Virus record (IMG/VR): IMGVR_UViG_3300031774_002539
Location: 1-32,423 of that record
DNA: 32,423 bases
Reading direction: 5' to 3' (one strand)
Origin: a virus
The translations under genes and the position numbers were made by a program. Below, one piece after another: positions 8,016 to 21,459 of the stretch. Under the pieces are notes generated by a model. The model did no database searches, was not told the origin of the DNA, and saw only the letters and a list, made by a program, of their open reading frames with translations. Numbering within the stretch: the stretch's first letter is position 1; each line of letters starts with the position of its first letter.

Positions 8016-8191
8016 TGATTAAATGGTTTCTCTCAAAGTGGTATAAACATAGTCCGACCTGTAATTGTGGTTGGACTATGAAACCCACACAAGTAAGACG
8101 AGAGGAATATAGTTGGATATGTATATGGAAAAAATGTGGATGGGAAACCTACCAATCGAGTAATGGTAGATTACATTGGTATAGAAGATGA
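8015..8191 (+). CDS. Small zinc-ribbon-like protein
   Basis: A 58-residue frame whose ATG overlaps the VWA stop (TAATG), so it is coupled to that gene. The sequence has CNCGW at residues 16-20 and CIWKKCGW at residues 36-43, a pair of cysteine knuckles that could bind one zinc ion. It is rich in Trp, Tyr, Lys and Arg. Its position between the VWA and MoxR genes suggests a partner or small regulator, but this is only context. The coding call rests on the overlap and the paired cysteine motifs. Confidence 0.6.
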   Translation: MIKWFLSKWYKHSPTCNCGWTMKPTQVRREEYSWICIWKKCGWETYQSSNGRLHWYRR

Positions 8192-8221
8192 AAAAAAACT
8201 TAAAAAAAGTGAAAAAAACAC

Positions 8222-8250
8222 TTGACTTTTACAAAAATTATTCGTAAGAT
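8222..8250 (+). promoter_or_regulatory. Sigma70-type promoter P3
   Basis: TTGACT at 8222-8227, 17-base spacer, TAAGAT at 8245-8250, followed by CAAATATAA. Third copy of the shared promoter module, with the same A-rich run upstream. It precedes a 30-residue membrane peptide gene. Confidence 0.8.
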
Positions 8251-8273
8251 CAAATATAATCAAAGGGAATTAA

Positions 8274-8366
8274 ATGAAAAACTTACTTTATACAATAGCA
8301 GAATTTTTAACAATGGTTTGGATATTCTTTGTATTCGGATTATTAATGGTATTGGGAAATATTTAA
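8274..8366 (+). CDS. Single-span membrane mini-protein, unknown
   Basis: A 30-residue frame with a good ribosome site (AAAGGGA at 8262-8268, five bases before the ATG) and its own promoter P3. Residues 8-28 are almost wholly hydrophobic and can form one transmembrane helix. Phages often encode such mini-proteins, but I do not recognise this one. The coding call depends on the promoter, ribosome site and membrane-like composition together. Confidence 0.55.
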   Translation: MKNLLYTIAEFLTMVWIFFVFGLLMVLGNI

Positions 8367-8394
8367 ATTATTTTGAAAATAATGAAAAAAAGAC

Positions 8395-8424
8395 TTGACT
8401 TATATACACTTTTTGTTGTAAGAT
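8395..8424 (+). promoter_or_regulatory. Sigma70-type promoter P4
   Basis: TTGACT at 8395-8400, 18-base spacer, TAAGAT at 8419-8424, then CAGGTATGA. Fourth copy of the module; it drives the MoxR-like ATPase gene with a leader of about 45 bases. Confidence 0.82.
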
Positions 8425-8475
8425 CAGGTATGAGAAATGAGAGATTAACTAACTTAATAAAGGGAAAAAAAAGTT

Positions 8476-11856: not shown

Positions 11857-11879
11857 AAACCTATCGTTTGGGATTTTTT
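11857..11879 (+). terminator. Weak intrinsic terminator after the small-gene string
   Basis: AAAAAACC pairs with GG-A-TTTTTT (one bulged A) around a short loop, and the T run at 11874-11879 is part of the 3' arm. It comes just after the 11683 gene and would separate that operon from the structured RNA. Confidence 0.4.
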
Positions 11880-11896
11880 GTGTATATATATATTAT
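11868..11896 (+). promoter_or_regulatory. Possible promoter for the large structured RNA
   Basis: TTGGGA at 11868-11873, 17-base spacer, TATTAT at 11891-11896, giving a start near 11903, 27 bases before the closing helix of the RNA. A second candidate, TTGACA at 11918-11923 with TAGAGA at 11940, would start inside the helix and is less likely. Neither uses the TAAGAT module. Confidence 0.4.
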
Positions 11897-11929
11897 GTCT
11901 TTCGGGACAAAAGTTTTTTGACAAATTGA

Positions 11930-12472
11930 AAATGGAAAGTAGAGAGACTAATTATCTCTCTATGGGATTGACCGAACAATGAGTGACTTCGAAGCTCATA
12001 AGGTAATCCGCTCTTAGACTCGTGGTGAGTTGGTATTCGGGTAAATGTTCAAAATACCTTGCGACAGCATTAAGAGAATGTACTTTCAGATAAAATTAAG
12101 AACGCGATTCTTAGACCTTGTTATGGGTAAGGGTAAAACCGAAATCCCATCTTGTGACCGAATAAACTAAACTCAGAGAGTTAAGGTAATGGCACAGAGG
12201 TTGTACTCACTTTGACGATGACTAACCATCATTGAGGAGAACCAAAGTAACTTTTGGGTGTTAGGTACAAGGTAAAAAAAATCTGAGTCTGAAAGTTGTA
12301 GGTATTCGCAAATCCTACATCCCCAAATTTTCATTTTTGGAAGGTATCTTTACAGATTGAAAAGATGAGAAGGGTGTTATTGTATTCCCTAACTTTCCAT
12401 TTATTTAGGTGGTGAGGCTTTCTTACATATACCCGATAATTTTAATTATCTAAAACTCACCACCTTTTTTTT
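11930..12472 (+). ncRNA. Large multibranched structured RNA, class not recognised
   Basis: No protein gene fits here. The ends pair perfectly: 11930-11940 with 12392-12402, 11 bp. Inside, all helices nest: 11940-11947/11955-11962 (8 bp, sharing base 11940 with the end helix); 11965-11973/12002-12009 (one bulge) enclosing 11979-11983/11995-11999; 12011-12016/12071-12076 enclosing 12018-12021/12027-12030 and 12032-12037/12053-12058; 12082-12090/12288-12296 (9 bp) enclosing 12097-12102/12108-12113, 12123-12127/12146-12150 and 12172-12177/12282-12287, the last enclosing 12201-12206/12265-12270; then hairpins at 12297-12319, 12323-12340, 12346-12366 and 12371-12390. A strong terminator follows. 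Size and layout recall large ornate phage RNAs such as GOLLD and ROOL, but I cannot match it to either. It is not evidently tmRNA or RNase P RNA. Confidence 0.8.
12407..12472 (+). terminator. Strong intrinsic terminator of the large RNA
   Basis: A perfect 10-bp stem, AGGTGGTGAG (12407-12416) with CTCACCACCT (12456-12465), followed by eight T (12465-12472). The long loop carries its own hairpin (GATAAT 12435-12440 with ATTATC 12445-12450). It starts five bases after the closing helix of the RNA, so it marks the RNA's 3' end. Confidence 0.88.
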
Positions 12473-12487
12473 AGCAAAAAATTTGTG

Positions 12488-12517
12488 TTGTTTTTAAAAC
12501 AAACCAATACTTATAGT
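12488..12517 (+). promoter_or_regulatory. Possible promoter of the replication operon
   Basis: TTGTTT at 12488-12493, 18-base spacer, TATAGT at 12512-12517, after the RNA terminator and about 65 bases before the single-strand binding protein start. The ribosome site AAGGAG follows downstream. A promoter is expected here because of the terminator, but the hexamers are only moderately good. Confidence 0.4.
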
Positions 12518-12581
12518 TGTACAGAAAAATATGTACAATTACAAAATAACAAATAAACATAAACAAATAAGGAGATAACAA

Positions 12582-13352
12582 ATGGATATTGAAGCCGTAA
12601 GAAAGCGACTAAACCAGTTACAAACCTCAACTACAAGAACAACAAACTTGTGGAAACCTCAACCAGGAAAGACACAAATCCGTCTTTTACCTTACAAACT
12701 AAATCAAGAAGTTCCTTTTATCGAACTATTCTTTCATTATGATTTAGGTGGAAAGTCTTATCTTTCACCAATCTCATTTGGTAGACCAGATCCGATTGAA
12801 GAATTTGCTGAAAAACTAAAGTCAAGTGGAAATCGTGAAGATTGGAGACTTGGTAAGAAGTTAGAAGCAAAACTCAGAACTTTTGCACCAGTTTGTGTTC
12901 GTGGTGAAGAAAACCAAGGCTCTAAGTTTTGGGGATTTGGTAAAACCGTATATCAAGAACTACTATCAATTATAGCAGATCCTGATTATGGTGATATTAG
13001 TGATCCAGTTAATGGACGCGATGTAGTGGTTGAATTCCTAACAGCTGAAGAAACAGGAGCGTCGTTTCCTAAGACTAACATCCGTGTTAAACCAAACCAA
13101 ACACCAGTTACAGAAGATAAAGCAGTTTTATCTACATTACTTGATGACCAAAAAGATATCCGTGAGGTATATAATGAGTTAAGTTATGATGAACTTGCAG
13201 AAGCTTTACAAGATTGGTTAAACCCAAGTGAAGATGGTGAAGATAAAGGCTCAGACAATTCCGTACCAGCATCAACAACAAAGAAATTAGAAAGTGCAGT
13301 AACAAACACTTCTAATGTTAGTGATGCTTTTGATGACCTGTTTAATAAATAG
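12582..13352 (+). CDS. gp32: T4 gp32-like single-stranded DNA-binding protein
   Basis: A 256-residue gp32-type protein. The basic N-terminal segment (DIEAVRKRLNQLQ) matches the part that makes neighbouring molecules cooperate. The core has the OB-fold pattern of phage gp32, including WKPQPGKTQIRLLPY, FIELFFHYDLGGKSYLSP and FWGFGKTVYQELLSII. The C-terminal tail is acidic and ends SDAFDDLFNK; in T4 the acidic tail recruits other replication proteins. It lacks most of the zinc-binding cysteines of T4 gp32, as is common in marine relatives. A strong ribosome site (AAGGAGATA) precedes the ATG. It is followed 14 bases later by uvsX, the usual recombination partner. Confidence 0.92.
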   Translation: MDIEAVRKRLNQLQTSTTRTTNLWKPQPGKTQIRLLPYKLNQEVPFIELFFHYDLGGKSYLSPISFGRPDPIEEFAEKLKSSGNREDWRLGKKLEAKLRTFAPVCVRGEENQGSKFWGFGKTVYQELLSIIADPDYGDISDPVNGRDVVVEFLTAEETGASFPKTNIRVKPNQTPVTEDKAVLSTLLDDQKDIREVYNELSYDELAEALQDWLNPSEDGEDKGSDNSVPASTTKKLESAVTNTSNVSDAFDDLFNK

Positions 13353-18408: not shown

Positions 18409-18459
18409 ATGGAAAGCAAATTAAAAAATGGGAGAAATCGTGAAGATGGAAAAGTTTAA
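18409..18459 (+). CDS. Possible 16-residue leader peptide overlapping the reductase start
   Basis: A short frame (ATG at 18409) with the best ribosome site in this gap (GAGGTAAAG), reading 16 codons and ending with TAA at 18457-18459, beyond the reductase ATG at 18446. The reductase itself has only a distant GGGAG site, so leader translation may feed ribosomes to it. It is too short to be sure that it is real. Confidence 0.3.
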   Translation: MESKLKNGRNREDGKV

Positions 18460-20461
18460 GTTATCAGAAAATTTTATTAATAAGTACAAAAGAAGAAAAG
18501 CTCCCTTTGGTTTTAACGGATTAGGTGAGTTAGTTTATATGAGAACCTATTCTCGAATCAAAGAGGATGGTAAAAATGAGAGATGGTGGGAAACCGTTCA
18601 ACGAGTTGTTGAAGGTACTTACACTATGCAAAAAAATTGGATTGATTCACATCAATTAGGGTGGAATCCGTGGCAAGCTCAAGCGTCCGCACAGGATATG
18701 TATGAGCGAATATTCACTATGAAATTCTTGCCACCCGGCCGAGGTCTTTGGGCAATGGGAACAGCCGTTACCGAAGAAAAAGGTTTGTACGCCGCCCTAA
18801 ACAATTGTGCATTTGTATCAACTAAAACACTAAAAGAAGATTACTCGAAACCATTTTGTTTCCTTATGGATGCAAGTATGTTAGGAGTGGGTGTTGGATT
18901 TGATACAAAGGGTGCTGGAGAAATAGTAGTTAAAGGAGTGGACAAGGATAGAGATGTACAGACATTTGAAATACCTGATACTCGTGAGGGTTGGGTAGAA
19001 TCTTTAAAACTACTATTAGAAGCTTACTTTCATGGTCAAGCGCCAATCGAGTTTGACTATTCAAAAGTCAGACCAGCTGGAGTACCAATCAAAGGTTTTG
19101 GTGGAGTTAGTTCAGGTCCTGAACCATTAGAAGAAGTTCATGTGGATATCAAAGGGGTATTAGAAAAGAATAGTGGAGAACCAATTACCGTAACAACGAT
19201 TGTAGACATAATGAACCTTATTGGTAAATGTGTCGTGGCAGGTAATGTAAGACGAACAGCAGAGATTGTATTTGGTGATCCTTATGATGAGGAATACTTA
19301 GATTTAAAGAATTATAAAGTAAATCCACATCGTGACCAATATGGTTGGACTTCTAATAATTCAATATTCGCAGAACTTGGTATGGATTATACGGAAGCAT
19401 CTGAAAGAATTAATGACAACGGAGAACCAGGATTTGCATGGTTAGAAAACATGAGAAAATATTCTCGTATGAAAAATGGTGGAGATGATAAAGACCATAG
19501 AGTTATGGGTGGTAATCCTTGTTTGGAACAATCATTAGAAAGTTATGAATTATGTTGTTTAGTAGAGACATTTCCAAATAACCACGATTCATTAGAGGAC
19601 TATCAAAGAACACTTAAATATGCTTATCTGTATGCCAAATCAGTAACATTAGGTAAGACACATTGGAGTGATACCAATCGAGTTATGTTGAGAAACAGAA
19701 GAATTGGATGTAGTGTGAGTGGAGTTGCTCAGTTTATTACTCAACGAGGATTACACGAATTAAAAAATTGGTTAGAGGAAGGATACGACACAATACAAGA
19801 ATGGGATAAGATGTATTCTGATTGGTTCGCAATTCCAAAGTCAATTAAAACCACAAGTGTAAAACCAAGTGGAACGGTTTCGTTATTAGCAGGAGCAACA
19901 CCAGGATTACACTATCCTGAATCAAGATTCTATATCAGAAGAATTAGGGTTTCAAAACATTCAGAATTATTAGAACCTATGAAAAAGGCTGGATATAAAG
20001 TTGAACCAGCTTTCGGTTCAGAGGACACAACAATGGTTGTTGAAGTTCCTGTTGATGTGGGAGAAGGAATTAGAACCGTGGGTGAGTTATCCATATGGGA
20101 ACAATTCAGTTTAGCTGCATTTATGCAAAGACATTGGGCTGATAATCAAGTTAGTTGTACCGTAACATTCAATCCTGAAACAGAGGGTGAAATGATACCA
20201 CAAGTATTAAACTATTTCCAATATCATCTAAAAGGTATAAGTTTATTACCACGACATGAATTGGGTGCATATAAACAAATGCCATATGAGTCGATTGACG
20301 AAAAGGAATATAAGAAGCAAGTTAAAAAACTTGGTAAGTTATCTTTTGGGGTTATACATAAAGAAGAAGCCAATATAGAAAAGTTTTGTGATGGTGATTT
20401 TTGTGATGTAGAAATAATACCCACAACAGGAGATAATGACGACCAAGAATATGCAAATTAA
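18446..20461 (+). CDS. nrdJ: Monomeric adenosylcobalamin-dependent (class II) ribonucleotide reductase
   Basis: A 671-residue RTPR-type enzyme that turns ribonucleotides into deoxyribonucleotides using a B12 radical. Counting from the ATG at 18446, active-site features are C121 in NNCAF, NPCLEQS with C359 (thiyl radical position) and E361, and C370/C371 in LCCLVE. KPSGTVSLLAGATPGLHYPE forms the later barrel, and a C-terminal redox pair C648/C653 (CDGDFC) would take electrons from a thioredoxin. An in-frame ATG at 18428 lacks a ribosome site. Monomeric class II enzymes are frequent in marine phages and need host cobalamin. It lies between the helicase and glutamine synthetase genes, in keeping with nucleotide supply during replication. 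Confidence 0.93.
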   Translation: MEKFKLSENFINKYKRRKAPFGFNGLGELVYMRTYSRIKEDGKNERWWETVQRVVEGTYTMQKNWIDSHQLGWNPWQAQASAQDMYERIFTMKFLPPGRGLWAMGTAVTEEKGLYAALNNCAFVSTKTLKEDYSKPFCFLMDASMLGVGVGFDTKGAGEIVVKGVDKDRDVQTFEIPDTREGWVESLKLLLEAYFHGQAPIEFDYSKVRPAGVPIKGFGGVSSGPEPLEEVHVDIKGVLEKNSGEPITVTTIVDIMNLIGKCVVAGNVRRTAEIVFGDPYDEEYLDLKNYKVNPHRDQYGWTSNNSIFAELGMDYTEASERINDNGEPGFAWLENMRKYSRMKNGGDDKDHRVMGGNPCLEQSLESYELCCLVETFPNNHDSLEDYQRTLKYAYLYAKSVTLGKTHWSDTNRVMLRNRRIGCSVSGVAQFITQRGLHELKNWLEEGYDTIQEWDKMYSDWFAIPKSIKTTSVKPSGTVSLLAGATPGLHYPESRFYIRRIRVSKHSELLEPMKKAGYKVEPAFGSEDTTMVVEVPVDVGEGIRTVGELSIWEQFSLAAFMQRHWADNQVSCTVTFNPETEGEMIPQVLNYFQYHLKGISLLPRHELGAYKQMPYESIDEKEYKKQVKKLGKLSFGVIHKEEANIEKFCDGDFCDVEIIPTTGDNDDQEYAN

Positions 20462-20472
20462 GGAGTAAGGTT

Positions 20473-21459
20473 ATGTATAAATTGGAATATCTATGGTTGG
20501 ATGGATGTACACCAACTCAAATTAGGTATAAAACAAAAGTTGTAAAAGAACCATTAAAAGTACCTGAATGGGGATTCGATCCTATTTGGGGATTTGATGG
20601 TAGTTCTACTGAACAGGCAGATGGTGGTAGTTCTGATTGTCAATTAAAACCAGTAAGGGTTTATCCAAATCCATTAGAAGAAGATAGTTCTATCGTATTG
20701 TGTGAAGTCTATAATGTAGACGATACACCACACAAATCTAATACGAGAAGATTATTAGAAGAAACTATACCTGATGGTATTGATGAATGGGTTGGCTTTG
20801 AACAAGAATACACATTATTTAAAAATGATAGACCATTAGGTTGGCCAGGACATGGTGAACCAGCTCCACAAGGAGATTATTATTGTGGTAGAAATATCGG
20901 TGAAAATATTTCAAGAGAACATTTAAATGCTTGTATCAAAGCTGGTATTAGTATTTGTGGAACAAACGCAGAGGTAATGTTAGGACAATGGGAATATCAG
21001 ATTGGTGCAGGTGGTTCAATCAATATGAGTGATGACTTATGGGTTGCTCGTTGGTTATTAGAAAGAATCTGTGAGAAGAATGGAGTTTCAGTATCACTAC
21101 ATCCAAAACCAATTGAAGGTGATTGGAATGGTGCAGGATGTCATACCAATTTTTCTACGAAATATATGAGAGATGAAGGTGGATATATAGAAATTATAAA
21201 TGCCTGTGAAAAGTTATCAAAAAATCCACAAGAACATATTGATGTGTATGGTCAAGATAATGACAAAAGACTTACAGGAGAACATGAAACTTGTTCTATT
21301 GAAGAATTTCGTTATGGTGTTTCAGATAGAGGAGCATCTATCCGTATTCCGTGGCAGGTGGAAAGGGACGGTAAAGGTTATTTAGAAGATAGACGACCAT
21401 CTTCAAATTGTGATCCATATGTGGTTTCACAAAAACTAATTCAAACAATTTGTAGCTAA
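20473..21459 (+). CDS. Glutamine synthetase, GSII (eukaryotic-type) family
   Basis: A 328-residue glutamine synthetase of the short GSII type, which joins ammonia to glutamate with ATP. Motifs in order: WGFDGSSTEQA (residues 39-49), the metal-binding WVGFEQEYTLF (E110, E112), the GEPAPQGDYYCG segment, GTNAEVMLGQWEYQIG (E167, E174), GDWNGAGCHTNFST (H224), YGQDNDKRLTGEHET, SDRGASIRIP, and GYLEDRRPSSNCDPY (E305, R307). All catalytic landmarks of plant/animal GS are present, and the length is near the family's 350-370. Bacterial GlnA (GSI, about 470 residues) is clearly different. A strong AAGGAGTAAGG site precedes the ATG, 11 bases after the reductase. It would supply glutamine for nucleotide synthesis; no PII-like regulator is nearby. 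Confidence 0.93.
   Translation: MYKLEYLWLDGCTPTQIRYKTKVVKEPLKVPEWGFDPIWGFDGSSTEQADGGSSDCQLKPVRVYPNPLEEDSSIVLCEVYNVDDTPHKSNTRRLLEETIPDGIDEWVGFEQEYTLFKNDRPLGWPGHGEPAPQGDYYCGRNIGENISREHLNACIKAGISICGTNAEVMLGQWEYQIGAGGSINMSDDLWVARWLLERICEKNGVSVSLHPKPIEGDWNGAGCHTNFSTKYMRDEGGYIEIINACEKLSKNPQEHIDVYGQDNDKRLTGEHETCSIEEFRYGVSDRGASIRIPWQVERDGKGYLEDRRPSSNCDPYVVSQKLIQTICS

Follow-up and report, generated by a model that had tools for sequence, protein, structure and literature searches.

A large structured RNA lies at positions 11911 to 12336 (+ strand) of the DNA analysed here (hereafter the window; 32,423 nucleotides, positions 1 to 32,423 of IMG/VR virus record IMGVR_UViG_3300031774_002539), and it harbors the core of the manA RNA twice, in a nested arrangement, since the second core sits inside the arm of the outer manA. 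We regard the existence of this RNA, its structure and the duplication as close to certain, and we assign it to the known family manA (RF01745) as an enlarged structural variant, not as a new class. As judged from sequence, the window, which comes from a marine T4-like phage, probably (roughly 65%) encodes a stand-alone phage noncoding RNA of manA lineage that would act free, and not as a cis-switch of the neighboring gp32 gene.

A pattern scan recovered relatives of the RNA from at least 120 contigs, and a profile search of the collected loci yielded 88 distinct sequences of full or nearly full length (49-100% identity); homologues located upstream of gp32 align over window positions ~11911-12336. 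For 87 of these 88 sequences a sequence-only alignment was made with MAFFT (alignment A1), and the structure was derived from covariation. Across the 87 homologues, the 114 proposed pairs are paired in 94.1% of 9625 cells, with two-sided changes in 84 of the 114 pairs. The original prediction had called for a search for compensating changes among homologues, and these proved abundant, including in its 9-bp and 6-bp helices, which hold: 1749 compensatory cells were counted, against a mean of 525 in shuffled controls (77.3% paired, 67.5 pairs with two-sided changes), none of 500 of which reached the observed values. Sliding the partners by 1-3 columns reduced pairing to 36-42%, a control that somewhat favours the structure because the latter was read from the same sequences; both controls fall short of a full phylogenetic null, and the effect is large enough to leave little doubt. 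The features of the RNA and of its surroundings are as follows.

11867-11893 (+): promoter-like element, consisting of TTTGGGA (11867-11873), a spacer and TATATATATAT (11883-11893); putative promoter.
11896-11909 (+): 5' leader hairpin, TGTC/GACA, of variable sequence among homologues.
11911-12336 (+): whole nested double manA, conserved core; 88 distinct homologues, covariation of 114 pairs.
11927-11933/12327-12333 (+): H0, probable closing helix UGAAAAU/AUUUUCA; moderate support (71-74% of cells paired).
11940-11946/11956-11962 (+): P1a hairpin, counterpart of manA P1; 95.8% of cells paired, two-sided changes in 6 of 7 pairs.
11964-11968/12319-12323 (+): long-range GGGAU/AUCCC helix, counterpart of manA GGGAG/CUCCC; 100% of cells paired, in 87/87 sequences.
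11964-12076 (+): domain 1 core; covariation, in-register manA match, 72.6 bits with model R2 (see below).
11971-11973/12002-12004 (+): P2a of domain 1; covariation.
11979-11984/11994-11999 (+): P3a of domain 1; covariation.
12011-12016/12071-12076 (+): J4a of domain 1, enclosing P5a (GUGGU loop), P6a and P7a; covariation.
12082-12090/12288-12296 (+): P8 arm helix, the 9-bp helix of the original prediction; 92.8% of cells paired, two-sided changes in 6 of 8 pairs.
12098-12112 (+): P9 hairpin, with a loop (12104-12107) in kissing contact with that of P10 (12306-12309); kissing pairs 97.7% paired.
12115-12273 (+): domain 2, the inserted second manA core; covariation, 39.2 bits with model R1 (see below) at 12150-12263.
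12115-12121/12267-12273 (+): Q0, closing domain 2; covariation.
12123-12127/12146-12150 (+): P1b of domain 2; covariation.
12157-12159/12185-12187 (+): P2b of domain 2; covariation.
12165-12168/12179-12182 (+): P3b of domain 2; covariation.
12172-12177/12282-12287 (+): PKb pseudoknot between the P3b loop and the 3' strand, the 6-bp helix of the original prediction; 87/87 paired at each position.
12190-12195/12258-12263 (+): J4b of domain 2, enclosing P5b, P6b and P7b; covariation.
12298-12302/12314-12318 (+): P10 hairpin; 100% of cells paired, two-sided changes in 4 of 5 pairs.
12337-12406 (+): lineage-specific linker with the 3' strand (12392-12402) of the predicted 11-bp helix; missing in most homologues.
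12407-12472 (+): intrinsic terminator AGGTGGTGAG/CTCACCACCT with inner hairpin GATAAT/ATTATC and T-run; identified from sequence.
12507-12538 (+): AT-box ATACTTAT with hairpin TTGTACA/TGTACAA, both in the gp32 leader and apart from the RNA; putative promoter.
12582-13352 (+): gp32-like single-strand DNA-binding protein (PF08804, E 1.8e-11), downstream neighbor of the RNA.

The conserved core is thus about 430 nt long, the 5' hairpin and the 3' terminator falling outside it. Among the long-range elements, GGGAU/AUCCC changes from G-C to A-U in 14 sequences and from A-U to G-C in 4, the first kissing pair varies among A-U, G-C, C-G and U-A, and PKb pairs vary between C-G and U-A and among A-U, G-C and U-A. 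Both long-range helices of the original prediction exist and covary strongly, the 6-bp helix being a pseudoknot. The perfect nesting that it had also claimed does not hold, as the covariation-supported structure contains two crossing interactions, namely this 6-bp helix and the kissing loop (12104-12107/12306-12309). P6a is moderately supported (64-75% paired), and for H0 the best helix averages 8.2 bp with its own partner, versus 7.1 bp with swapped partners and 5.3 bp after shuffling. A hairpin of the minimum free energy (MFE) fold (12170-12174/12178-12182) was rejected, one of its pairs failing in 60 of 87 sequences while P3b and PKb pair in all. GGAUU (11965-11969) can pair locally with AAUCC (12005-12009) or, as GGGAU, with the distant AUCCC (12319-12323), so that a switch within 11964-12009 is possible; the local helix can form in most homologues, and it is not needed, because it is broken in the 14 sequences that keep GGGAU/AUCCC through the A-U change.

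The RNA had originally been modelled as a single multibranched molecule closed by an 11-bp helix (11930-11940/12392-12402), which we now consider highly improbable. The perfect 11-nt complement (AAATGGAAAGT/ACTTTCCATTT) is present in the window and belongs to its MFE fold, the stretch folds more stably than 100 of 100 shuffles (z = -3.68), and 8 bp of the helix are kept in five close relatives (L178, L181, L141, L015 and L128). However, 11 bp are reached in the window sequence only; most other homologues lack the 3' segment of the helix, show background-level matches only, and pass from the core directly to the terminator without positions 12337-12400, while at another locus (L007) the linker with this segment occurs at 89% identity where the RNA core was undetected. 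As a conserved closing helix it is refuted, and it could still form in the window's own lineage. The linker together with the terminator (12336-12470) recurs at L007:843-979, L004:1339-1403 and L005:2018-2079, in each case with the RNA core undetected, and because of this presence in loci without a detected core the segment seems to act as a separate piece.

Screening against Rfam returned manA (RF01745) at 12122-12323 with 67.7 bits, above the gathering cutoff of 55.2. Down to E = 5 the other matches were at chance level, and the classes listed for checking in the original prediction (GOLLD, ROOL, OLE, tmRNA, RNase P and group I introns) gave no match; ARAGORN found no tRNA or tmRNA gene. A match to ncr1241 on the terminator (24.7 bits versus a cutoff of 60) was dismissed as chance. 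The original prediction had held that a strong match to a known class would make the RNA known rather than new; manA is such a class, but less than half of the RNA lies within the match. On our mapping, it would combine pieces of the two nested domains, linking domain 2 with a portion of the outer arm, because the second core is inserted after P9.

Scanned alone, the 5' part (11914-12121) aligned with manA in register over 11940-12121 (13.5 bits, E 0.19 across 4227 families). We then compared both domains with ordinary manA, represented by loci L202-L321 and L324-L333. R1, a core model built from the ordinary manA of phage contigs, gave 58 matches (E <= 1) in 519 kb around the double RNAs, all 58 inside the RNA, with 55 located on domain 2 and the other 3, in register, on domain 1. 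Conversely, the three best matches of R2, a model of domain 1 alone with the window sequence outside its training set, in 374 kb of ordinary manA loci were in-register manA cores (17.6-18.4 bits, E 0.11-0.17). The window contains exactly two occurrences of the paired motif GACCGAAYAA..TAAGGTAAT, with 0 expected. Taken one by one, the matches of domain 1 to manA are weak (E 0.1-0.8 in large searches), and the proposed correspondence of the domains is based on weak but in-register matches together with the same element order rather than on any single strong score.

Element by element, the outer frame is that of manA: P1a, GGGAU/AUCCC, the first core, arm P8, the kissing hairpin P9 and the last hairpin P10. 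The second core (12115-12273) is closed by a helix of its own and lies in the arm between P9 and the 3' strand of P8, where ordinary manA has a short linker, so that the conserved manA core sequence and its four-way junction are present twice. Shared with manA (RF01745; PMC2864571) are the P1 hairpin, the GACYGAAUAA/UAAGGU internal loop, a junction with a 6-bp closing helix and three hairpins, of which the first has a GUGGU-type loop, the GGGA/UCCC long-range helix and the kissing of the arm hairpin with the last hairpin. In contrast to the single core of ~192 nt of manA, the double RNA spans ~430 nt, carries the second core in its arm with PKb and Q0 added, has a separate terminator, and has been seen in uncultured phage contigs only. 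The counterpart of GGGAG/CUCCC was identified in domain 1 and none in domain 2.

With regard to distribution, each contig (30-120 kb) holds one copy of the double form, additional matches of ~13.5 bits being at chance level. Searching 50,697 phage records by DNA similarity with three versions of the RNA revealed no relative in isolate phages (a single 37-base match was judged to be chance), and an exact search for the diagnostic pattern found none in 84,980 bacterial and archaeal genomes. In the two nearest isolates the region preceding gp32 lacks a manA core, and 40 other gp32 loci gave no core-model match, the contig starting too near gp32 in some of them. Over the phage, bacterial and archaeal records searched, double-form relatives are known only from uncultured phage contigs.

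The ORF listing of the window bears out the claim that the stretch holds no protein gene: ORFs of at least 60 aa are absent from the + strand between 11458 and 12582, a region flanked by an SNase-like nuclease gene region (PF00565) and the gp32-like gene. The latter starts a replication operon that continues with RecA-like, 5'-3' exonuclease and DnaB-like helicase genes, and the compensatory changes strongly support the view that a large ornate phage RNA stands just before it. Elsewhere in the window, 18428-20461 codes for a B12-dependent ribonucleotide reductase and 20473-21459 for a glutamine synthetase-like protein, and a further 460 bases (8016-8475) contain no ORF of at least 60 aa and no Rfam match at gathering score. 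Among the double-form loci, gp32 lies downstream in 80 of 88, at a median distance of 192 nt, with other ORFs in between in several of them. The RNA and gp32 share the same strand in the window, the terminator and the AT-box of the gp32 leader standing between them.

Signals resembling those of a transcription unit accompany the RNA. Upstream, 72 of 86 homologues have a TATATATA box ~31 nt 5' of the core, with a hairpin after it in most; the box is part of a promoter-like consensus (TTTG.G..TTTT....TATATATATATA) whose boxes are AT-rich within an AT-rich genome, and 63 of 86 upstream segments fold within the lowest decile of shuffles. Downstream, the strong terminator noticed in the original prediction is indeed a terminator-like hairpin with a T-run (12407-12472); a stem and T-run occur in 75 of 87 homologues, usually 65-75 nt past the core, and the stem takes 24 different sequences. 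Within the terminator loop a conserved inner hairpin (CGATTTTTAGTTTCCAC...AAACTTAAAAA) is found together with a freely variable outer stem (L080, L153, L057, L138 and others). The AT-box occurs in 78 of 80 gp32 leaders, compared with 18 of 80 shuffled ones. The presence of start-like and stop signals of its own suggests a free RNA rather than a switch of the neighboring gene.

An alternative is that the two manA cores are ligand aptamers in the leader of the gp32 operon, forming a tandem riboswitch or attenuator with the terminator as expression platform. manA was itself proposed to be a riboswitch (PMC2864571), paired similar cores resemble tandem aptamers, the terminator stands between the RNA and gp32, which is downstream in the large majority of loci, and the competing GGAUU/AAUCC helix is available to most homologues. 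Against this, pairing between the terminator stems and the RNA's invariant 3' strand is not conserved across homologues, and it is because 24 stem versions exist with no such pairing that attenuation is disfavoured; a comparison of the stems with that strand likewise found no expression platform overlapping the cores. Furthermore, gp32 has its own AT-box past the terminator in nearly all leaders, genes intervene in several loci, and ordinary manA occurs as a single copy beside unrelated neighbors, the next gene in P-TIM68 being on the opposite strand. We therefore consider a tandem riboswitch unlikely. Glycine riboswitches are tandem riboswitches, with two similar cores in one RNA. In the double RNA, one core lies inside the other and not side by side, and no core-overlapping expression platform was found.

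Ordinary manA in phages offers a further view of the family. Weinberg et al. (2010) considered manA a probable riboswitch because diverse genes have it in their potential 5' UTRs (PMC2864571). In all 42 isolate and single-cell phage records matched it is single copy, and its neighbors are unrelated (the psbA/ferredoxin region, purL, after gp23, pstS and gp32). Of 87 contig copies, 41 have a T-run of at least 4 that starts within 10 nt of CUCCC, versus a background of 4%, and in some contigs a tRNA-like sequence, read by eye, directly follows. Because it is single copy, stands next to almost any gene and frequently ends in a T-run, ordinary manA resembles a small RNA gene more closely than it does the switch of a regulon, which is the interpretation that we infer; the main counter-argument is that in 79 of 80 loci the gene that follows manA shares its strand. 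Literature searches on noncoding transcripts of cyanophages turned up no data on manA expression. Small "hypothetical proteins" annotated over manA in P-HM2 (L328:1555-1729), P-SSM4 (L327:1545-1718) and S-SSM5 (L330:1507-1713) are probably spurious genes. Directly after manA, a recurring element (GACCTAAGATGCAACT...GGGCAGATGGTC) is found in L227, L214, L242, L289 and L210, possibly wcaG RNA or a structured RNA of another kind. The wcaG RNA (RF01761), likewise from marine cyanophages, has been reported beside manA in S-CREM1 (PMC9964418); the window contains no wcaG match.

The RNA might also be a separate element specific to gp32, binding the protein or setting its amounts in the manner of the T4 gene 32 leader. 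The frequency of gp32 downstream of the double forms agrees with this, as does ordinary manA, which precedes gp32 in P-HM2 and, in contigs, a family of 11 ORFs that includes a gp32-like protein (named by sequence only). Most ordinary manA copies are nevertheless found elsewhere (after gp23, before purL, near pstS), and the terminator and AT-box separate the RNA from gp32, making such a specific role distinctly unlikely.

For the stand-alone reading speak the TATATATA box and hairpin upstream, the terminator downstream, the separate gp32 AT-box and the ORFs that intervene in several loci; against it count the downstream position of gp32 and the same-strand arrangement of ordinary manA, both as expected of a cis-element. 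As a stand-alone RNA, the ~430-nt conserved core would be part of a predicted transcript of roughly 560-580 nt, transcribed from its own putative promoter and ending at its own terminator. It would persist during infection as a free, stable, structured RNA acting in trans, and the two similar cores may serve as binding or docking sites for a protein, an RNA or a small molecule. A bolder proposal, which we find doubtful, is that all manA-family RNAs are stand-alone and misfiled as cis-regulatory, the double form fusing the two cores of an ordinary homodimer into a pseudo-symmetric, GOLLD/ROOL-like machine. Like GOLLD and ROOL (PMC12286853), the double RNA is large, ornate, phage-encoded, pseudoknotted and of no assigned function, while it differs from them in matching neither in Rfam, in being smaller and in having a manA-type core.

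manA has counted among the orphan riboswitch candidates since 2010, and the literature searched (open-licence full texts) was found to contain no account of manA in enlarged or double form. The double form, which is large and widespread, provides a covariation-grade structure of a kind absent from Rfam and from that literature. Its doubling and the start and stop signals predicted for it argue against a cis-switch, and the double RNA would exemplify the growth of an RNA by copying its own core into its own arm.
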